A stretch of 21,370 nt of DNA from IMG/VR virus record IMGVR_UViG_3300037808_000947, positions 1 through 21,370 of that record; one strand, given 5' to 3'. Source of the DNA: a virus. A program made the position numbers and the translations under genes. The notes beneath the pieces were generated by a model that had not been told where the DNA came from, made no database searches, and saw nothing but the letters and a program-made list of their open reading frames with translations. This document shows, piece by piece, positions 6,028 through 18,378 of the stretch (position 1 is the stretch's first letter; every line of letters begins with the position of its first letter).

Positions 6028-6492
6028 ATGGCCCGACTCAGACCGTCCAACGTCGTCCGCAACCCGCCCACCGGAGAGACTCGGGTGGCCGGTTGGTCCT
6101 ATGTGACCGTGGCTTTCGGGCCTCCCCCTAACCCGCTCAAGACGCGGGCGGGAGTCCACCACGCGGTCCACTGGAACAAGGTCCGTGAGATGCTCCGACC
6201 CTATGCGTTCCAGGAGGTCGAAGGCTCGGCGGTGGTCCTGGGTCACGGAGACGGCTCGGTCATCACGTTCCGGTCCCGGGGAGAGTCGAAGCTCCCGGAG
6301 CCGGTCCAGAAGTGGCTCCAGAAGACGGAGCCCAAGGGGTTCGCGGAGGCGTCGAAGATTGCCAAGGGCGCCGCGAAGTTCCTCGCGGCCATCGCCAAGC
6401 TGTTCGGGGTCCCGCAGTTGGGAGCCATCGCAGCCGGGGCGACCGTTGCCCTGGGGGCTCTAGACGCGGTACTGGACGACGACGAGGGTTAG
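6028..6492 (+). CDS. Unknown protein with C-terminal hydrophobic domain
   Basis: ATG 6028 was chosen because GGAG lies a few bases upstream; the frame stays open further upstream but would run inside the amidase gene. The 154-residue product has a polar N-terminal region and a strongly Ala-rich hydrophobic or amphipathic C-terminal region at about 112-149 (KFLAAIAKLFGVPQ, then LGAIAAGATVALGALDAVL), ending in an acidic tail DDDEG. Placement directly after the endolysin makes a second lysis protein, such as an antiholin or pore-forming protein, plausible. No family was recognised. It is the last gene of the rightward tail and lysis block, and its stop overlaps the stop of the convergent minus-strand gene. 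Confidence 0.7.
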   Translation: MARLRPSNVVRNPPTGETRVAGWSYVTVAFGPPPNPLKTRAGVHHAVHWNKVREMLRPYAFQEVEGSAVVLGHGDGSVITFRSRGESKLPEPVQKWLQKTEPKGFAEASKIAKGAAKFLAAIAKLFGVPQLGAIAAGATVALGALDAVLDDDEG

Positions 6493-7049
6493 CCCTGGAC
6501 CGCCTCCACGAGCCACTCAGCGAAGGCCGGGGGGGTGATGTGGCGGTTCTTTTTCGGAACACATAGCCGGTCACCCCGGCGGCTCCGGCTCTGCCCGAGT
6601 ACATGGGTTGCGATGCGAGCCGGGGGGAGCGGGGGGAGGCTCCTCGGGTCCACATCCACGAAGAACAGCCACGTTCGCTTCTTCATCTGGTGCCCGAAGT
6701 CCACCTGATTGACCGCAAGAGCCCACTCCCTGGGGGCGAAGGTTGGCACCGCATGGAACGGCGCCGGAAGGCCGCACTCCCTCCACAAGACGGAGCCCTC
6801 CGGGTGTTCCAGAACCCCACCCCACCGCCGCACCTGGGCGACACCGACCGGGGAGAGGCTCGCGTCTTGGTGCTTACAGTTCCACCGCAGCTTGCCCCAG
6901 GGGCCGCAAGGGGGATGTGCAACCACCCTCCAGGGTCCGGGGTACGTCTTCGCATCCCGCTCGACCCCCCAGCACAGGTCTCGACCCACCAGCCCCGGAT
7001 AGGGGCCGCTCTCGGGGTCAACGTACAGGGCGGCAACGGTGCGCCTCAT
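6489..7049 (-). CDS. Putative divergent DNA cytosine-5 methyltransferase-like protein
   Basis: ATG 7049 is chosen because it overlaps the previous stop (ATGA) with GGAGG just upstream; an in-frame upstream ATG would overlap the neighbour heavily. The 186-residue product shows AHPPCGPWG at 44-52, GGVLEHP at 77-83, VDFGHQMKKRTWLF at 116-129 and TPPAFAEWLV at 172-181. These order like C5-methyltransferase motifs: IV (Pro-Cys catalytic loop), VI (Glu), VIII and X. Such short PPC proteins occur in other phages and are often left as hypothetical. Motif I is not canonical (YVDPESGPYPG), so activity on cytosine is inferred and a different nucleotide-modifying role remains possible. It is the last gene of the minus-strand recombination block. 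Confidence 0.6.
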   Translation of the reverse strand: MRRTVAALYVDPESGPYPGLVGRDLCWGVERDAKTYPGPWRVVAHPPCGPWGKLRWNCKHQDASLSPVGVAQVRRWGGVLEHPEGSVLWRECGLPAPFHAVPTFAPREWALAVNQVDFGHQMKKRTWLFFVDVDPRSLPPLPPARIATHVLGQSRSRRGDRLCVPKKNRHITPPAFAEWLVEAVQG

Positions 7050-7255
7050 GCCTCCTCCAGCGACTCGGGCCGGGACCTGAACTCGACCCACACCGCGAGC
7101 CCGTCCCGTTCGATTAGCTTGAGGAGGCCCTCGCAGTCATCACACGCGATGAACTCCCCAAGGGCTACCTCCTCCCGGGGAGCGGCCCAGGCCAGCCGGT
7201 TGATAGTCGCCGCGCAGCATCGTCGGGCGCTGGTGCAGGTGTCTTCGATGTTCAC
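7046..7255 (-). CDS. Small Cys-rich protein of unknown function
   Basis: The start is taken as GTG 7255, which overlaps the upstream stop in a GTGA junction, matching the coupling style of the neighbours; an upstream in-frame GTG at 7279 is the alternative. The 69-residue product contains an N-terminal group of cysteines (DTCTSARRCCA) and a central CDDC pair within FIACDDCEGLL. Together these could bind a metal ion, but this is only suggested by spacing. No family was recognised. It sits between an HTH/zinc-ribbon protein and a methyltransferase-like protein, with 4-bp overlaps on both sides. Confidence 0.65.
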   Translation of the reverse strand: MNIEDTCTSARRCCAATINRLAWAAPREEVALGEFIACDDCEGLLKLIERDGLAVWVEFRSRPESLEEA

Positions 7256-7533
7256 CCGGCGACCTGGACCCGGAGCCACTCCCCGCAGCCGGTACAGAGG
7301 ACCGACGCTCGGGCAGGCCGCACCATGTAGCTCTTCCCGCAGGGCTCGCAGATACCCACCCTGGCTCCGGGAGCCTTCCTCCGGCGAGCTTGGGCCGAGG
7401 GGATACCCAACGACCTCCTCTGGTAACTGATAGCCCCCTCGGTGACCCCGAGTTGGGCGGCAATCGCAAGGTCTGACCAGACTCCCTCGGGGTCCTGGTC
7501 CAGGATGCGCTTGACACGCTGGCGGGTATTCAT
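7252..7533 (-). CDS. HTH and zinc-ribbon DNA-binding protein
   Basis: ATG 7533 has GGAGA a few bases upstream. Of 93 residues, about 18-45 form a helix-turn-helix (SDLAIAAQLGVTEGAISYQRR), resembling Sigma-70 region 4 or MarR-like recognition helices. Residues 62-83 hold a CX2C-X14-CX2C pattern (CEPC and CTGC), a probable zinc ribbon. Both parts suggest a DNA-binding regulator of phage genes. The gene is preceded by a 172-bp leader with an unusual amount of predicted RNA structure, so its expression may be controlled after transcription. It overlaps the next gene by 4 bp. The DNA target is unknown. Confidence 0.75.
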   Translation of the reverse strand: MNTRQRVKRILDQDPEGVWSDLAIAAQLGVTEGAISYQRRSLGIPSAQARRRKAPGARVGICEPCGKSYMVRPARASVLCTGCGEWLRVQVAG

Positions 7534-7556
7534 CGGTCTCTCCGTGCGCCGTTAGC

Positions 7557-7696
7557 CGCTCCGGTGGAGCGTTGCCCGTCCCTCGCCTTCGTGGCGGTGG
7601 TGCGTGAGGGACTCCCCACCCCCAGGAGGAGGGGTGAGGAGGGGACCGCAGGAGATGGGCGGCGAGGTCTGCGGTCCCCAGGAGGAACCTCGCCGC
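7557..7696 (-). ncRNA. Structured leader: pseudoknot plus three hairpins
   Basis: The intergenic stretch 7534-7705 separates the end of the DUF669-like gene from the start of the HTH/zinc-ribbon gene, both on the minus strand. It contains two interleaved perfect inverted repeats forming an H-type pseudoknot (stem 1: 7641-7651 with 7669-7679; stem 2: 7659-7668 with 7687-7696). Three further hairpins follow in the transcript: 7617-7622 with 7631-7636; CGCC/GGCG at 7584-7596; CGCTCC/GGAGCG at 7557-7571. No T-rich run follows, so it is not an ordinary terminator. The strand is assigned because both flanking genes are on minus. It could be a leader element, a message-end protector or a processed small RNA. 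Confidence 0.45.
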
Positions 7697-7705
7697 TTCT
7701 CGTGC

Positions 7706-8314
7706 CTAGAAGGCCACGCAGCTATCGCAGCCCTTCCCGAAGCAAACCACACAGTCCGGGTCCCCCCACCCCTCCTCGGTGGGTGCGGAGGCATCGGTGG
7801 GCGCGGGAGCCTGGGGACGCTGAGAGGCCTCGGGAGCCTCCCGGCGCGTCTCCACCTTCGCGGGCTGCATCGGCGTCTCCTGGGGGCTCTGAGCGGCCTC
7901 CAGGAGTTCGTTCAGGTAGATGTCCACGAACTTCTTGCCCTGGTAGTGCCGGGACTTCTGGCGGACCCGGACGCGAGCCCCGATGACCTCCCCCCGGACG
8001 GGTCCGGTCTGGCCGGTCTCGTCGTTCCCGAGGTCGGTCCAGGGTGGGATGCGTCCGGTGACCAGCCGCATGTCCTGCTTGACGAAGCCCACGGTGCGCT
8101 CGTTCATGGACAGGAACCGCTGGAGCAGGGCTCCGTCGAAGAGTCCCCCGTCCACCGCGACCCACCAAGAGACGTACCAGTCCCCGGACTTCGCCCGGAA
8201 GCAGGAGAAGTCCTGAATGGTCCCGTCGTACTGGCCGTCTGGGACCTCGCTCATGACCCGCTCTGCGGGGCTTCCCCCGGCTGCGGGGGTGTCGTTCCAC
8301 ATCGTGCTATCCAT
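7706..8314 (-). CDS. DUF669-like protein, candidate single-strand DNA-binding protein
   Basis: ATG 8314 follows GAGGAGAG at a good distance and overlaps the end of the upstream ATPase gene by 8 bp. The 202-residue product has a central region, about 25-140, beginning VPDGQYDGTIQDFSCF and rich in beta-strand-like segments (YVSWWVAVDGG; GARVRVRQKSRHYQGKKFVDIYLNEL), resembling DUF669 phage proteins, which pair with Sak4-type ATPases and may be OB-fold single-strand binders. A Pro/Ala/Glu-rich linker (about 141-180) leads to a C-terminal CX2C-X4-CX2C cluster at 188-199, a possible zinc knuckle. The linker plus distinct tail recalls SSB organisation. Assignment to DUF669 is by resemblance and neighbourhood. 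Confidence 0.65.
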   Translation of the reverse strand: MDSTMWNDTPAAGGSPAERVMSEVPDGQYDGTIQDFSCFRAKSGDWYVSWWVAVDGGLFDGALLQRFLSMNERTVGFVKQDMRLVTGRIPPWTDLGNDETGQTGPVRGEVIGARVRVRQKSRHYQGKKFVDIYLNELLEAAQSPQETPMQPAKVETRREAPEASQRPQAPAPTDASAPTEEGWGDPDCVVCFGKGCDSCVAF

Positions 8315-9089
8315 TTTGCTCTCCTCGGTTGCCCTTTCGGGCGTTAAACGCTCGGGAAAACTCCCGAGCTAGGGTGGGGAAGTCCATCGGGAGCGTGTCC
8401 GGGAGTCGGCGGTCCGGGGTCCCTCGACCCTTCGCCTCCACCAAGGCCTCCGGCGTGTCTGCGGGCTGCGTCCGCAGGAGGCGGTTGCCCTCTTCGTCCA
8501 TCTCGGCGTGGAGGATGAAGTCCACCGCCGAGTGGAGTACGCCCCGGGCGGTCCGGGGGAGGTCAGACGAGACGTAGTACCGTCCGGTATCGACCTCCCG
8601 CTTGCCACGTCGAACCATGATGGGGGCCTTCTTCTCGTGGCCCAGGAAGATCGTGCAAACCCGTCCGCCGTCCGCCGTCTTGAGGTTGCGGAGGCCGTGG
8701 ATAGCGTTTATCCACCGGGTCTTGAGCGTCCGCCAGCCCCGTCCCCACTCGGCGTCCGCCGGGTCCGAGATGCCCATCTCCTGGCAGGTGGCCTGAAGAC
8801 AGAGCGGATACAGCAGGTCGATGGTGTCCACGACCACCGTGCGGAACTCGTGCTTCTCCCGACCCCGGAGGGCGGCCTGGACGGCGAGGAAGTCCTCCCA
8901 GGAGCCGATGGGGACCGAGGCGGCCTCCATCAACTCCGTCCCGCTCTCCGTCGCGAGGAACAGGGCATCCGGGAAGGCGTTGGCGAGGGTGGTCTTTCCG
9001 ATGCCGGGGGCACCGTAGACGAGGAAGGAGAAGTCCGACATGCGGGTCCGAGGCGGACGCTTGCCGGTGGGAAGGATGCGGGGGCTCAT
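8307..9089 (-). CDS. Sak4-like RecA-fold ATPase (AAA_24 family)
   Basis: ATG 9089 overlaps the nuclease stop by ATGA; the frame stays open upstream but would lie inside that gene. The 260-residue protein has Walker A GAPGIGKTT at 26-34 and a Walker B-like strand TVVVDTID at 84-91, then IFLGHEKK, consistent with the RecA-fold nucleotide-binding family called Sak4 or AAA_24. Members assist single-strand annealing or strand exchange together with an SSB. The neighbours (Cas4/RecB-like nuclease before, DUF669-like protein after) form the usual phage recombination set. A 37-residue upstream extension would not match the family. It acts in the cytoplasm on phage DNA. Confidence 0.85.
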   Translation of the reverse strand: MSPRILPTGKRPPRTRMSDFSFLVYGAPGIGKTTLANAFPDALFLATESGTELMEAASVPIGSWEDFLAVQAALRGREKHEFRTVVVDTIDLLYPLCLQATCQEMGISDPADAEWGRGWRTLKTRWINAIHGLRNLKTADGGRVCTIFLGHEKKAPIMVRRGKREVDTGRYYVSSDLPRTARGVLHSAVDFILHAEMDEEGNRLLRTQPADTPEALVEAKGRGTPDRRLPDTLPMDFPTLAREFSRAFNARKGNRGEQNG

Positions 9090-10132
9090 GGGGTTGTCTC
9101 CGGTAGCTCGGGGTTGGGGTTGTCGATGATGCGGAAGGCGTCCGTGCCTACTTGGCCGGTGCAGAGGTCGAAAAAGGCACACCGTCCGAAGTCCAAGCAA
9201 CTCTTCACGTTGCGGACAGGGAAGGCCCCGCCCTCAAGCTCCAGGACCCTCTCGTGGAGGCTCCAGACCTCATGCTCAAACCGGAGGAGGTCCGCCGTCG
9301 TCCGAGTCACGAGGACCTCGTGAAAGTAGTTGTCCGGGCGGCTGCGGTAGTCCGCGAGGACCCGCCGACCGTACTCCTCGGGGGTCTCCGCGACCTTCCG
9401 CTTGAGCGGGGGTCGAGCCTCCTCCCGGGCCTGGGACCGCTCCTGATAGGACTCCTCCGCCTCCCCCTTCCGCTGCTTGAGCGGGGACAGGGGCTTCCGG
9501 GCCTGGACCCTCTCCGCGAACTCCGAGTCCGTCTCGCCCTTCCGAGGCCGCAGGCCCGGTTTCTTGACGATGCGGTAGACCACCTCCCGGACCGGAGCCC
9601 CGGTGACCCGAGACATTGCCCCCAGGTACATCGTGACCTGAAAATCGAGAGCCAGCCGGGCGATGTAATCCCGGTCCACCCTGGAGGATGTCTTCAACTC
9701 TAGGAGCTTCGATTCGTCGTAGACGCCATCCACGACGCCCCCGAGGACGTGGACCGTGGAGGTCCCCCCGGTGGTGGGGTTGCGGAGGGGGATGCGGAAG
9801 GGGACTTCCGCCCGTTCGGGCCAGTCGTCCCATCGGACCAGGGCTCCCTCGACCATCGCCCGGACCACCCAGGAGTCCCGCTCCAGGGCGTCCCTCTCCT
9901 GGTCGGAGTACGCGGGGCCTCGGGCTTCGACCAGGGCACGGACTCCGGCCTCCGGGTCCTGGTGTTCGATGCCAGCGTGGAAGCCGGTCCCGACCGAGAA
10001 GTGGGGAGGGGTCTCCATCGGTCGGAGGCCCTCCAGGTATTTGAGCCGGAACAACTCCTCACAGCGGAGGAGCGTCCCGAGACTGCTCTGGGTGAGTACC
10101 GGAAGTCTCCGGCGTGGTGGGGTGGGGTCCAT
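9086..10132 (-). CDS. PD-(D/E)XK nuclease, Cas4/RecB-like, with probable Fe-S cysteines
   Basis: ATG 10132 has GGAGAGA upstream and is preferred to an upstream ATG at 10174. The 348-residue protein shows the nuclease signature: His52, GGVVDGVYDE with Asp135, LLELKTSS with Glu145 and Lys147, and QVTMY (Gln165, Tyr169). A single Cys24 (LLRCEELFRLKY) plus a C-terminal cluster Cys312, Cys318, Cys324 match the split 4-cysteine arrangement of Cas4/AddB-type iron-sulfur nucleases. A charged segment of about 75 residues between them has three loose repeats (RKGETDSEF, RKGEAEESY, KVAETPEEY). It is probably an exonuclease making single-stranded ends for the Sak4-like partner downstream. No CRISPR array is near, so it is a phage recombination nuclease rather than an adaptation Cas4. 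Confidence 0.85.
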   Translation of the reverse strand: MDPTPPRRRLPVLTQSSLGTLLRCEELFRLKYLEGLRPMETPPHFSVGTGFHAGIEHQDPEAGVRALVEARGPAYSDQERDALERDSWVVRAMVEGALVRWDDWPERAEVPFRIPLRNPTTGGTSTVHVLGGVVDGVYDESKLLELKTSSRVDRDYIARLALDFQVTMYLGAMSRVTGAPVREVVYRIVKKPGLRPRKGETDSEFAERVQARKPLSPLKQRKGEAEESYQERSQAREEARPPLKRKVAETPEEYGRRVLADYRSRPDNYFHEVLVTRTTADLLRFEHEVWSLHERVLELEGGAFPVRNVKSCLDFGRCAFFDLCTGQVGTDAFRIIDNPNPELPETTP

Positions 10133-13236: not shown

Positions 13237-14007
13237 TTAATCGTTCAGGACCTGCCATGCGAGCGCAGCCACCGCCGGAACTTGACCGTTTCCAGCGGCG
13301 CGGAGCCTGTCCATTTGGTCGGGAACCTCATTAGCCAATCGATAAAGTTGGGGTTGAGGTATTGCGGGTCCTCTTTGCAAGTCCTCAAGCCCTCGGATGT
13401 CTTCGCCCCACGATAATGAGGGCTCCCCCGGAACCGTTTGCTGCTGCTGCCCTTGTTCATGTTCGCGCTCGGGGTCGGAAGCGAGAACCCAGACCCGCTC
13501 CCTTTTATGCAGGGCACCCGTACAGCACGCTCCCAACACTCCCCACCGTGCATCGAACCCCATCGCGGCCAAGTCTCCGAGAACAACGCCCATCCCCCGA
13601 GAAGTGAGCATTGGTGAGTTCTCCACGAAGACGTGCCGGGGTCCCACTTCGCGAACGATCCGCGCCATCTCTCCCCAGAGACCGGAACGTGCGCCGGATA
13701 GACCCGCGCCCTTACCCGCTGCGCTGATGTCCTGACAAGGGAACCCCCCGCAGATGACCAACTGATCTCGGATGACCCTGAGCCCTTCGATGAACTCGGA
13801 GCAGTCGGGGTTGTCGGCTCGGAAGGTCGAGACATCATCCCAGACGGGGAAGGGCGGGAGCAGTCCGTCCCGCTGCCGCTGGAGCAGTACGCCCCCAGGA
13901 TAGGGTTCGATTTCAACAGCGCCGACCGGCCAGTGACCGAGCAAAGCGTCCGCAAGGATTCCGCCGCCCGCTCCGGCGAACAAGTGGAATGTGAATAGCT
14001 GCTCCAT
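13237..14007 (-). CDS. DNA cytosine-5 methyltransferase
   Basis: ATG 14007 begins one base after the upstream stop, with GGAGGAAGG a little further upstream. The 256-residue protein shows C5-methyltransferase motifs in order: I FHLFAGAGGGILAD at 7-20, IV GGFPCQDIS at 87-95 (catalytic Cys91), VI VFVENSP at 126-132 (Glu129), VIII KRERVWVLA at 168-176, and IX/X AAGNGQVPAVAAL at 237-249. Length is on the short side, leaving a small target-recognition region (about 177-235, Gln-rich). It would add methyl groups to cytosine in phage DNA, perhaps to block restriction. Its position between initiator and helicase and its two GATC sites suggest insertion into the operon. Target sequence unknown. Confidence 0.9.
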   Translation of the reverse strand: MEQLFTFHLFAGAGGGILADALLGHWPVGAVEIEPYPGGVLLQRQRDGLLPPFPVWDDVSTFRADNPDCSEFIEGLRVIRDQLVICGGFPCQDISAAGKGAGLSGARSGLWGEMARIVREVGPRHVFVENSPMLTSRGMGVVLGDLAAMGFDARWGVLGACCTGALHKRERVWVLASDPEREHEQGQQQQTVPGEPSLSWGEDIRGLEDLQRGPAIPQPQLYRLANEVPDQMDRLRAAGNGQVPAVAALAWQVLND

Positions 14008-14008
14008 G

Positions 14009-15058
14009 TCATACCCTTCCTCCGAGCCACGCCAACAGCGCGGACGGCTTCGGGGGCCTCGTGACCCCCGCCTCTTCACAAGCCCCGAGGAGTCCGGCCT
14101 CGGTGACCTTCTCCCCCAGTGCGGTCCGTTCATCTCTCCACCGCAGCAACCAGCGGTGGTTCTCCTGCATCCACTCCTGGGTTGGGTCCACCGCTCCCGA
14201 GGAGATGGCGGCCCCGCCCTGACGGGCCTGGATGATTAGGCGGTCAAAATGTTCCCGGACCTTCCGCCCGCTCAGAAGGTTGGGCCTCCAGAAGCCCGAG
14301 GGGTCCTGGATGTGCGCCCACCGGATAACGGCGCGCACCTCCCCCTCTGAGGCTCCGTCAATGCGTAGGAGCTTCTCCAGGTCCACCTCCCACCCCACGA
14401 CGCCCTCGGCCCCGTCGCGCTTCCCGGCGACTCGGGGAGAGTGGGACCGGATGGACTCCCGGAGGAGGACCGCCAGCCCTCGCGCGGGAGAGGTATTCCC
14501 TTCTTCCTTCTTCTTCTTCTTCTTGGTTCTTGTTCTTGGTTCTTGATTAGGGGATGTCTTTGGCAAAGGCTTAGGGGAAGGCTTTGGCAAAGGCTTCCCG
14601 GAAGGCTTCCCCAGGTCCGGGAACGTCGCATCGAAGGCGCGGAGGAAGGCTTCCCCCTGGAGCCTCTCCCGGATACCTCGGATGGCCTTCTCTCGGAGGT
14701 CCGTCTCGGGGAGCTCCCGGAAGGCCGACCCCCAGGACTTGACGACGTTCGGGCTCGCTGGCGGGTTGTGGGTCACCGCCTTCGGGAGCCATACCAGAGG
14801 AGGCCTCTGAGACCGCTCCAGGAGCCCCGCATCCTCTAGCTCCTGGAGGGCTCGCCGGGTCTTCCCCGCCTCCCATCCAAGACCGTCCGCGAGAGTCCCG
14901 AGACCCGCGCGAAACAGCCCCGGGATGGGTCCCTGGACCTCTCCGGTGAGCAGGTATATCCAGAGGGTCTGAGCGTTAGGCTCCGGCCCCGAGAGGCCCA
15001 GGAACTTCGCGTCCGACCACATACCCCGGGTCACGAGGGAATAGCGTCTCCGGGTCAC
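14009..15058 (-). CDS. Replication initiator-like protein
   Basis: The start is GTG 15058, overlapping the upstream stop by GTGA. The 349-residue protein has a winged-helix-like N-terminal domain at about 5-95 (DGLGWEAGKTRRALQELEDAGLLER), a low-complexity linker at about 150-188 (KPLPKPSPKPLPK, then a run of six Lys), and a C-terminal part at about 195-280 whose sequence VIRWAHIQDPSGFWRPNLLS and VREHFDRLI resembles the ends of phage DnaD-type or replisome-organiser proteins that recruit helicase. Position ahead of the DnaB-type helicase supports an initiator or loader role. The linker DNA has origin-like repeats (see separate entries). Assignment is by architecture and context. Confidence 0.7.
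   Translation of the reverse strand: MTRRRYSLVTRGMWSDAKFLGLSGPEPNAQTLWIYLLTGEVQGPIPGLFRAGLGTLADGLGWEAGKTRRALQELEDAGLLERSQRPPLVWLPKAVTHNPPASPNVVKSWGSAFRELPETDLREKAIRGIRERLQGEAFLRAFDATFPDLGKPSGKPLPKPSPKPLPKTSPNQEPRTRTKKKKKKEEGNTSPARGLAVLLRESIRSHSPRVAGKRDGAEGVVGWEVDLEKLLRIDGASEGEVRAVIRWAHIQDPSGFWRPNLLSGRKVREHFDRLIIQARQGGAAISSGAVDPTQEWMQENHRWLLRWRDERTALGEKVTEAGLLGACEEAGVTRPPKPSALLAWLGGRV
14494..14612. repeat. Iteron-like array and AT-rich tract inside initiator gene
   Basis: From 14558 to 14605 four consecutive 12-bp units have the form CTT-N5-AAG-G, three of them with near-perfect dyad symmetry (CTTTGGCAAAG twice, CTTCCCGGAAG once). Beside them lies a T-rich, pyrimidine-biased tract (14494-14550) with a perfect tandem 13-mer, TTCTTGGTTCTTG, at 14520-14532 and 14533-14545. 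The DNA encodes the Pro/Lys and poly-Lys linker of the initiator. The layout resembles lambda-type origins, with iterons and an AT-rich unwinding region inside the initiator gene. Origin function is inferred. Confidence 0.55.
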
Positions 15059-15375: not shown

Positions 15376-15436
15376 GACCCCTTATCCCGCACGCTTCCCC
15401 TTCGCGCCCTTGTTCCGGGGCTGGGAGGAGCCTGTG

Positions 15437-16474
15437 GTGGATGTCTTGGTCGAGTTGTGCGCCGGGACCGCCGCGCTCTCATGGGCGACGGCTGGACTAA
15501 AGTTCCCGGTGTCGCGCATGGGCTCAAAGTCCGGGTATGCCTACGCCATCCTATCGGCCCTCGGCCTGCGGGCTGGCGAGCCGTTGCCCGCGTATCTGTG
15601 GAACGAGCCCGACGAGGAGCTAGCGCGCACGCTCGCCCTCCTGGCCTCCCCGGGCGGCGCTGCCGCCGTGGCCGAGGTCATTCGCTCGTGGATACCCTGC
15701 CCCGCTGGACACGCCGAGGGCGGCGCGGATTGGTGCCTTGAGTGCGCGCGGTGGACGAACGGCGCGGACGGTGCCCCGCTCGGTGTAGAGGCTTACGTCG
15801 AGCGCAAGCGGGACGGGACCATTCGGCGATGGGCGTCCGGCCCGAGTACGGGCAAGCAGGACGCGCGGAGGCTGTGGGAGAGGTTGAGGAAGGAGCGGCC
15901 CGAGGCGAGCCCGGAGCGGGAGGGTGCGATGCTCTACATGCTCAACTCTAACGAACTCATCCCGGGTGCCTACGTCAACGGCGAGTGGCGCAATCAGGGC
16001 AAGGGCGGGACGACGTTCGGCGGCGAAAACAACGGATGGGGACCGGACCGCGCCAGCATGAAGCGCCGCATCGACACCCTCTCCCCCATCCCCGCCACCG
16101 TCGTCTGCGGACGCGCGGAGGACGTACCGACGCCGCCGGACTGCTCGCGGGTCCTCTGCTACATCGACCCGCCCTACCTCAATACGACCGGATACGCCCA
16201 CGGGTTCGACCGTGCCGCCGTCGTCGCAGTTGCCCGACGATGGGCCGACGCAGGGGCGCACGTTGTCATCAGCGAGGCCGAGCCCATCCCCGAGTTAGTC
16301 GCGGACGGCTGGCACTTCTGCGACATCGCGGACGCGCGCATTGGTCAGCGGCGGACGTTCAGCAAGCAGCAGCGCGAAGCCTTGACGAGTAACCGCCCGC
16401 TCACGCCCCGCCACTCCTGGCCCGCTCGGGATGCTCTCCCCGGTCAATCGAGCCTGTTCGGGCCGCGGTCGTGA
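15437..16474 (+). CDS. DNA adenine N6-methyltransferase, Dam/D12-like
   Basis: GTG 15437 is chosen for GGAGGAG six bases upstream; GTG 15434 and TTG 15410 are alternatives. The 345-residue protein has an SAM-binding motif LCAGTAALS at 7-15, SRMGSKSGYA at 26-35 (like the KxxGGK region of Dam), and the catalytic DPPY at 244-247. An insertion near 88-103 has Cys88, His92, Cys100 and Cys103 and could bind zinc. The C-terminus ends PARDALPGQSSLFGPRS; QSSLF at 337-341 fits a sliding-clamp-binding pentapeptide. Target base adenine is inferred from family. Codon style is GCG/CGC-rich, unlike the backbone, suggesting acquisition. Confidence 0.82.
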   Translation: MDVLVELCAGTAALSWATAGLKFPVSRMGSKSGYAYAILSALGLRAGEPLPAYLWNEPDEELARTLALLASPGGAAAVAEVIRSWIPCPAGHAEGGADWCLECARWTNGADGAPLGVEAYVERKRDGTIRRWASGPSTGKQDARRLWERLRKERPEASPEREGAMLYMLNSNELIPGAYVNGEWRNQGKGGTTFGGENNGWGPDRASMKRRIDTLSPIPATVVCGRAEDVPTPPDCSRVLCYIDPPYLNTTGYAHGFDRAAVVAVARRWADAGAHVVISEAEPIPELVADGWHFCDIADARIGQRRTFSKQQREALTSNRPLTPRHSWPARDALPGQSSLFGPRS

Positions 16475-16961: not shown

Positions 16962-17015
16962 CCCGCTCGAGATGCTCTCCCCGGTCAATCGAGTCTCTTT
17001 GGAGGTAGCCCATGA
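16962..17015 (+). pseudogene. Relic of a gene tail related to the Dam-like methyltransferase C-terminus
   Basis: The frame here reads PARDALPGQSSLFGGSP then a stop. Its first 14 residues are identical to the C-terminus of the Dam-like methyltransferase. The two DNA copies (16421-16462 and 16962-17003) differ at five of 42 positions, every one a silent third-codon change. No start or ribosome-binding site precedes it and similarity stops abruptly upstream, so it looks like the end of a lost or replaced gene left between 16947 and 17044. Confidence 0.6.
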
Positions 17016-17043
17016 CCCTCTCCCCTTTTCACTCGGAGGAACG

Positions 17044-18378
17044 ATGACGAAGAAGAAACCCGAAGCGGCTGCGGTGTGGTGTCCGGTCGAAGACCTGACC
17101 CCCTGGGACGACAACCCCCGGCTCAACGACGAAGCCGTGGGGAAGGTCCGGGACTCCATCAAGCGGTTCGGGTTCGCCGCTCCCATCGTGGCTCGCAAGG
17201 AGGACGGAATGGTCATCGCCGGACACACCCGGCTCCGGGCTGCGGTTGAGTTGGGGCTGGAGAAGGTCCCCGTCCGGTGGATGGACCTGGACCCGGCGGA
17301 CGCTCGGATGCTCGCCCTCGCTGATAACAAACTCGGAGAGGTCGCAGCGTGGGACGACGACCTGCTACGGAAGGTCCTGGAGGACCTCGCCAGCGAGCCG
17401 GACCTGGACCTGTCTGGCCTGGGTTGGGAGGAGGAGGACCTGGAGGCCATCCTGGGGGACGACGACCCCACCGGCCCGGAAGACGGAGACCTGACGGAGC
17501 CCCCCGAGGAGCCGGATAGCGCGGTGGGCGAGGTCTACGAACTCGGACCGCATCGGCTTGTCTGCGGGGACTGCCGGGACCCCTCGGTGGTCTCTCGACT
17601 GCTCGACGGGCAGAGCATCAACGTGGCGCTCACATCGCCGCCGTATGCGAGTCAGCGCAAATACGACGAATCCAGCGGGTTCCGACCCATCCCGCCCGCC
17701 GAATACGTGGAGTGGTTCGACGCTGTACAGGCGAACGTCCGCGAGCATCTAGCGGCGGACGGCTCGTGGTTCGTGAACATCAAGGAGAGTGCGGAGGGCG
17801 GCGCTAGGAACCTATACGTGAAGGATCTCACGCTGGCACATGCTCGGCAGTGGGGGTGGCGATTCGTCGACGAGTTCTGCTGGAGGAATACCGCGAACGG
17901 CGTCCCCGGTACGTGGCCGGACAGGTTCAAGAACGCTTGGGAGCCAGTCTTTCACTACTCAACCGGAGCGCCCCGGTTCAGGCCGGGCAACGTGAAGCAC
18001 GCCACGGTCGACGCCTTCAACTACGGAGAGCGGGAGGCGTCGCGCACCGGGACCCCGTTTATGCGAGGCGGCGCCCGGAAGGATGGGGCGGCGCTGCCGA
18101 GTAACGTGGTCGAGGCTCGGCCGGAGTTGGCGGGCATCCACTCTGCACCGTTCCCGCTCGCGCTCCCCGACTTCTTCATTCGCGCATTCTCCGACGCCGG
18201 AGACATCATCTTCGACCCGTTCCTCGGCAGCGGGACCACGCTTGTCGCAGCGGCGAAGACCGACCGCGTGGCCTACGGGTGCGAGATAAGCGCAGGGTAC
18301 TGCGACGTTATCCGCCGCCGATGGACGACCTGGGCCGACGAGGCTGGAGTGGACCCAGGACCCGGGGCTCTGCGGTGA
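17044..18378 (+). CDS. ParB-like domain fused to DNA (N4/N6) methyltransferase
   Basis: ATG 17044 follows GGAGGA at a good distance. The 444-residue protein has an N-terminal ParB/Srx-like domain (about 10-100: DNPRLNDE at 23-30, GHTRLRAA at 60-67), an acidic linker (about 115-165) and a methyltransferase part with catalytic TSPPY at 197-201 and SAM-binding FDPFLGSGTT at 390-399, the beta-class order. It could methylate cytosine N4 or adenine N6; the motif does not decide. ParB-methyltransferase fusions are known in phages and plasmids. Codon style changes near the domain junction (about 17600). It overlaps the resolvase gene by GTGA. Confidence 0.88.
   Translation: MTKKKPEAAAVWCPVEDLTPWDDNPRLNDEAVGKVRDSIKRFGFAAPIVARKEDGMVIAGHTRLRAAVELGLEKVPVRWMDLDPADARMLALADNKLGEVAAWDDDLLRKVLEDLASEPDLDLSGLGWEEEDLEAILGDDDPTGPEDGDLTEPPEEPDSAVGEVYELGPHRLVCGDCRDPSVVSRLLDGQSINVALTSPPYASQRKYDESSGFRPIPPAEYVEWFDAVQANVREHLAADGSWFVNIKESAEGGARNLYVKDLTLAHARQWGWRFVDEFCWRNTANGVPGTWPDRFKNAWEPVFHYSTGAPRFRPGNVKHATVDAFNYGEREASRTGTPFMRGGARKDGAALPSNVVEARPELAGIHSAPFPLALPDFFIRAFSDAGDIIFDPFLGSGTTLVAAAKTDRVAYGCEISAGYCDVIRRRWTTWADEAGVDPGPGALR

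Follow-up and report, generated by a model that had tools for sequence, protein, structure and literature searches.

A probable HDV-like ribozyme and a predicted, lineage-specific pseudoknot between two genes of a phage genome

Self-cleaving RNAs of the HDV type are known from phages as theta ribozymes, which lie in non-coding DNA, share the minimal-ribozyme motif, come mostly from gut phages and mostly cut at the 3' ends of tRNAs; isolated phage ribozymes away from tRNAs were reported in the same work, whose authors left their function open (PMC10879173). Clustered hammerhead ribozymes that flank prophage genes have been proposed to process long transcripts into mRNAs of gene or operon length (PMC3088659). 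Among phage pseudoknots, that of T4 gene 32 lies in the 5' leader, within the target of autogenous repression of its own gene (PMC535899, PMC3014915). In T4, gp32 binds its own message.

The locus described here resembles each of these in part. Like theta ribozymes, the predicted ribozyme is HDV-like and sits in phage non-coding DNA; a tRNA-linked theta ribozyme was rejected, as ARAGORN found no tRNA genes in the window, which is an entire IMG/VR virus record (21,370 bases, G+C 67.7%). With the prophage hammerheads it shares the proposed role, the ribozyme fold being different. The resemblance to T4 gene 32 is one of neighbourhood alone: a phage pseudoknot adjoins a gene for an ssDNA-binding protein in both, but in the window the pseudoknot comes after that gene, whose protein family is assigned only weakly. 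A gene 32-type autoregulatory leader was rejected, since the pseudoknot sits after the DUF669-like stop and not in the ssb leader. The closest likeness is to the HDV-like ribozymes (RF00094; RF02682, HDV-F-prausnitzii), with which the locus shares a predicted nested double-pseudoknot layout, a 7-bp P1 starting with G1, the CC of L3 beside a P3 that is imperfect in the window copy, GGCAAC, P4 and a candidate catalytic C in a CNRA motif. The window copy differs from that family in a score below gathering, a P2 of five positions that includes an A.C, a short and GC-rich P4, a position between phage recombination and HTH-like genes, and a flush hairpin with an extra pseudoknot upstream.

Gene neighbourhood and interleaved repeats

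As both genes flanking the 172-nt intergenic spacer are on the minus strand, the relevant RNA is the reverse complement of the presented letters and runs from 7705 to 7534. Read in this direction, the order is stop codon, 9-nt spacer, interleaved stems, hairpin, ribozyme core, Shine-Dalgarno sequence and next gene. The parts outside the ribozyme core are:

8307-9200, upstream of the DUF669-like gene: Sak4-like ATPase gene (phrog_124, E 2.6e-29)
7706-8314, minus strand: DUF669-like gene, open reading frame of 202 amino acids with stop TAG at 7708-7706, preceded by the Sak4-like gene
7697-7705, minus strand: 9-nt spacer from stop codon to pseudoknot, read from the sequence; its equivalent in the relative G001 is 8 nt before the first stem
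7687-7696, minus strand: 5' arm of pseudoknot stem S1, GCGGCGAGGT (inverted repeat)
7669-7679, minus strand: 5' arm of pseudoknot stem S2, GGGGACCGCAG (inverted repeat)
7659-7668, minus strand: 3' arm of S1, ACCTCGCCGC (inverted repeat)
7641-7651, minus strand: 3' arm of S2, CTGCGGTCCCC (inverted repeat)
7613-7640, minus strand: flush hairpin of 10-11 bp upstream of the predicted cleavage site (from folds and the G001 sequence)
7540-7543, minus strand: Shine-Dalgarno GGAG, 2 nt past the end of P2 and 6 nt ahead of the ATG
7252-7533, minus strand: HTH-like gene, open reading frame of 93 amino acids, HTH- and zinc-ribbon-like from weak Pfam matches

A PD-(D/E)XK nuclease gene is also encoded upstream, on the same side as the Sak4-like ATPase. 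For the nearer neighbour, the stop position given by the initial annotation stands, and support for its DUF669 label is weak, with Pfam PF05037 scoring 11.8 bits (E 0.27) where the cutoff is 21; an AlphaFold2 model of the protein, with a mean pLDDT of 41, was too low for use. Between 7200 and 8400 there is neither a sigma-70-like promoter nor an intrinsic terminator, and intrinsic termination was rejected because no stem-loop followed by a U tract occurs there. Several DNA-methyltransferase-like genes are present in this small record, namely at 13237-14133 (minus strand; a C5 cytosine methylase match, PF00145) and, judged by eye, at 15410-16474 and 16972-18378 (both plus strand).

The initial annotation had described two perfect interleaved repeats of 11 bp (7641-7651 with 7669-7679) and 10 bp (7659-7668 with 7687-7696), separated by two 7-base loops with nothing between the inner arms and starting nine bases after the DUF669-like stop. 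All of this is found in the sequence exactly so, the nine bases (7697-7705) when read on the minus strand. The arms of the 10-nt S1 and the 11-nt S2 are 100% complementary, the whole element is 56 nt long, and it is the single pair of interleaved perfect stems of at least 8 bp (span up to 70) in the window. In 100 dinucleotide-preserving shuffles of the window the mean number of such pairs was 0.77 at >=8/8, 0.05 at >=9/9 and 0 at >=10/10 (0 of the 100 shuffles), and shuffling the 172-nt spacer alone gave a >=10/10 pair in 2 of 20,000 cases. As shuffles of window and spacer almost never yield 10/10 pairs, the repeats are not a chance product of composition, which bears out the earlier statement that the interleaving is improbable by chance. 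An exact 11-nt direct repeat, CCCCAGGAGGA, occurs at 7620-7630 and 7676-7686 with a spacing of 56 bases, equal to the length of the pseudoknot, and may mark a slippage or duplication event.

In energetic terms the two stems are well matched, with -21.9 kcal/mol for S1 alone and -22.2 kcal/mol for S2 alone, and their stacking energies total -53 kcal/mol. With assumed pseudoknot penalties of 9.6 to 14 and the remainder of the leader folded separately, the leader with the pseudoknot comes to about -88 to -93 kcal/mol, compared with -86.5 kcal/mol for the best nested fold, in which S1 is lengthened with GAGA/UCUC and GCA/UGC. Two perfect interleaved stems of 10 and 11 bp with workable loops, as in an H-type pseudoknot, are present: the 7 nt of L1 cross about 25 Å and easily span it, and the 7 nt of L3 run over a 10-bp shallow groove of about 42 Å, which is taut but possible. 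On these figures formation of the pseudoknot is plausible, and an extended S1 hairpin is a genuine alternative. The energy estimates place the pseudoknot slightly below the nested fold, with no clear preference, and vary with the penalty.

The probable ribozyme core and its counterpart in a relative

Scanning the whole window against Rfam at gathering cutoffs gave no matches. The default scan is empty because both HDV matches in the spacer score below gathering: under permissive filters (7450-7800), HDV-F-prausnitzii matches 7612-7544 on the minus strand over the full model with 29.4 bits (E 0.001) and the HDV_ribozyme model matches with 26.3 bits, compared with gathering values of 44 and 50 bits respectively, which are curation thresholds and not biochemical features. 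The putative ribozyme comprises:

7546-7612, minus strand: HDV-like ribozyme core (Rfam matches, pair counts, conservation)
7612-7613, minus strand: predicted cleavage site A7613/G7612, placed by the start of the HDV-like alignment at 7612
7612-7606/7584-7578, minus strand: P1, GUCCCUC/GAGGGAC, 7 bp beginning with G1
7603-7599/7550-7546, minus strand: P2, four of five pairs plus one A.C
7598-7596/7587-7585, minus strand: P3, with A.C in one of three pairs (the outer one)
7594-7593, minus strand: CC of L3 for P1.1, the GG after P1 being present
7577-7571, minus strand: GGGCAAC
7570-7566/7562-7558, minus strand: P4, fully paired, short and GC-rich
7555, minus strand: candidate catalytic C in J4/2 after P4, within GGCUAA (CNRA)

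A relaxed HDV descriptor gave one match in the window, exactly at this locus, compared with 3 hits, 2 of them distinct, at unrelated places in 1.2 Mb of strand sequence, and the P1/P2/P3 geometry was absent from unrelated contigs chosen by the conserved core letters. Two features of membership, a 7-bp P1 beginning with G1 and a catalytic C in CNRA after P4, are present. The RNA would work like the HDV-like ribozymes and is probably a member of their family, a grading that reflects the imperfect P2 and P3, the score below the curated threshold and an activity that is only predicted. The 5' strand of P1 (7612-7606) can also pair with GAGAGAC at 7542-7536 (minus strand) over the Shine-Dalgarno sequence; with this tail included, P1 occupancy is predicted to fall from 0.94 to 0.38, and G001 does not have the same complement.

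The search for relatives in viral contigs and genome collections used Sak4, the DUF669-like protein, the terminase and three DNA patterns as queries, and a nucleotide search of phage records gave no matches. The sole relative found with the locus is IMGVR_UViG_3300025133_006240 (G001), which is about 75% identical in Sak4, 84% in the terminase, 59% in the DUF669-like protein and about 56% in the HTH-like protein. Its ribozyme match (6382-6451, plus strand; 28.5 bits, full model) likewise follows the DUF669-like stop, at the corresponding position, and is also below the Rfam gathering threshold. Of the other contigs, two (L001, L002) were rejected as relatives because their matches were short and spurious, three (L062-L064) were rejected as carriers because their core letters match without a matching ribozyme fold, and the terminase relatives L051 and L053-L059 had no credible ribozyme match, most being fragments without the region. 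All but one of the terminase relatives were without a Sak4 match, the remaining one being weak. A model built from the two sequences found no further credible copy in the window, the G001 genome or the other terminase relatives.

The DNA comparison of the two phages uses the blastn table, tblastx being too noisy in GC-rich DNA. No aligned block matches G001 better than the spacer DNA at 7545-7623, with 86% identity compared with 67-80% elsewhere, and the conserved block stops where P2 and the ribozyme end; fourfold-degenerate sites in genes common to both phages are 41-58% identical. Within the core, 59 of 68 columns are identical (87%), with 8 substitutions and a 1-nt indel in the loop of P4. 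This indel, together with a G001 frame that closes 29 codons past the DUF669-like stop, argues that the constraint on the core is not coding. In P1 a double change converts U-A in the window into C-G in G001 (GUCCCCC/GGGGGAC), paired in both, and in P2 the pair 12/66 is A.C in the window and G.U in G001, a near-isosteric double change that leaves all five P2 positions paired in G001, G.U included. In P3, the outermost pair reads A-U in G001 but A.C in the window, with the CC of L3 and the GG kept in both; the other substitutions affect loops, a junction and the variable purine of CNRA. The catalytic motif reads GGCUAA in the window and GGCUGA in G001, and the CC/GG of P1.1 and CURA are kept. 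A pair-count control, in which 375 of 500 shuffles were equally good, has no power with two sequences only, so that what speaks for a ribozyme is its agreement with a known fold, together with the constraint. On this evidence the HDV-like ribozyme at 7612-7546 (minus strand) is very probably genuine. The window copy looks weaker than that of G001, as it has A.C in both P2 and P3 and nested folding favours another register for P3 (GCC/GGC), and it may be slower or decaying; even with its two A.C mismatches it is rather likely to be active, to judge from its sequence.

The stretch between stop codon and predicted cleavage site also differs between the two phages. In the window it measures 93 nt (9-nt spacer, 56-nt pseudoknot, 28-nt hairpin), in G001 only 28 nt (8-nt spacer and 20-nt hairpin). 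In each phage, pairing in the hairpin runs up to the base just ahead of the predicted cleavage site, and the hairpin sequences differ. An upstream hairpin, P(-1), aids the genomic HDV ribozyme, and the hairpin of the window, likewise directly upstream of the predicted site, could prevent mispairing with the flank. The interleaved stems are absent from the spacer of G001, the sole ortholog found, where a single hairpin stands instead, and with no other homologue found there is neither conservation of the H-type element nor compensatory change in it. Since the G001 leader is without it, the pseudoknot is an insertion in the window lineage or was lost in the other. In the folding model, P1 occupancy is predicted at 0.77, and at 0.95 once the pseudoknot region is locked, which hints modestly at insulation. 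G001 has an extra small gene (MPRTFNHTDKDGKPTPYINEG...) at 6470-6678 (plus strand), between the ribozyme and the HTH-like gene; the ribozyme thus stays behind the DUF669-like gene while the next gene changes.

Proposed message splitting and rival readings

Taken together, the locus is perhaps best read, on balance, as an intercistronic RNA-processing module in a minus-strand replication and recombination cluster, with the pseudoknot in its 5' half. In this module the pseudoknot is most probably a lineage-specific accessory, the conserved heart being the HDV-like ribozyme. The ribozyme would fold and cut between 7613 and 7612 during transcription. The Sak4/DUF669-like message upstream would gain a defined 3' end, carrying a 2',3'-cyclic phosphate, for which the hairpin and, in the window phage only, the 56-nt pseudoknot would act as a cap; the pseudoknot could slow 3'-to-5' exonucleases and keep upstream sequence from interfering with the ribozyme. 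The HTH-like message downstream would gain a 5'-OH end and a ribozyme fold just before its Shine-Dalgarno sequence. A 5'-OH is not sensed by RNase E as a 5'-monophosphate is, and stable 3' structures slow exonucleases; a cut at this position would therefore separate the fates of the two halves, and the net outcome would be an uncoupling of the two messages. That 3'-end protection or insulation is the main role of the pseudoknot is proposed tentatively. The earlier suggestions of a cis-regulatory leader or nuclease-resistant message end are partly supported. The evidence speaks for a structured, functional intercistronic RNA, and the message end comes near the best explanation, but G001 does not share the pseudoknot, and the conserved part is the probable ribozyme 28 nt beyond it, which the initial annotation had missed.

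Alternatively, the repeats could form a nested hairpin in which S1 is extended (GCA.GAGA.GCGGCGAGGU paired to its complement), S2 being a minor state or functionless, so that a plain stable hairpin would stand beside the ribozyme. The nested minimum-energy fold does use the extended S1, within 2-6 kcal/mol of the pseudoknot estimate, and the tautness of L3 in the full pseudoknot points the same way; set against this, chance would very seldom interleave a perfect S2 of 11 bp with S1, and S2 is as stable alone as S1, which makes the plain hairpin rather unlikely. Less probable still is a spurious match, or a decayed ribozyme, in a spacer kept for another reason, such as a protein-binding or replication site. 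Scores below gathering, the A.C mismatches of the window copy and a descriptor background above zero would fit such a case, yet the match recurs in the diverged G001 with changes in register in P1 and P2, every letter of the catalytic core is preserved and the conserved block reaches no further than the end of the ribozyme.

Regulatory readings of the pseudoknot fare worse. In an aptazyme-like leader, control of the ribozyme or of the downstream Shine-Dalgarno sequence in response to a factor would lie with the pseudoknot, or with switching between it and the extended hairpin. The 3' arm of S2 can indeed pair near the Shine-Dalgarno sequence in the nested fold, P1 occupancy rises when the pseudoknot is locked, and the SSB-like neighbour gene recalls T4 gene 32. 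However, the pseudoknot is not conserved in G001, and a decoy or switch suggested by the 7-nt word GGCGAGG common to S1 and the ribozyme was rejected, as a ribozyme-like word in S1 is at chance level (547 of 1000 shuffles); this kind of control is accordingly considered improbable. It is slightly less probable again that the pseudoknot serves as a sensor domain of the ribozyme, its pseudoknot and extended-hairpin states being shifted by a factor, e.g. the SSB-like upstream product, or by a terminating ribosome. If it were so, self-cleavage, and hence expression of the downstream DNA-binding protein, would be controlled, and the locus would encode a natural, phage-encoded allosteric ribozyme. 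A signal for programmed stop-codon readthrough or frameshifting would suit the 9-nt distance between UAG and pseudoknot (8 nt to the hairpin in G001), but no conserved extension is compatible with a 1-nt indel inside the conserved core, and programmed readthrough was rejected because the open frame after the stop is not conserved, closing so early in G001; this reading is very improbable.

Under the favoured reading as a processing module, the locus adds an apparent HDV-like ribozyme, scoring below the Rfam cutoffs, in a phage message without tRNA context and at the boundary between two gene modules. It would provide a concrete case of message splitting, in which one half ends in a hairpin and pseudoknot and the other begins with a ribozyme-capped 5' end by the Shine-Dalgarno sequence. 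It also suggests that a striking pseudoknot seen in a single genome can be accessory to a larger conserved RNA.
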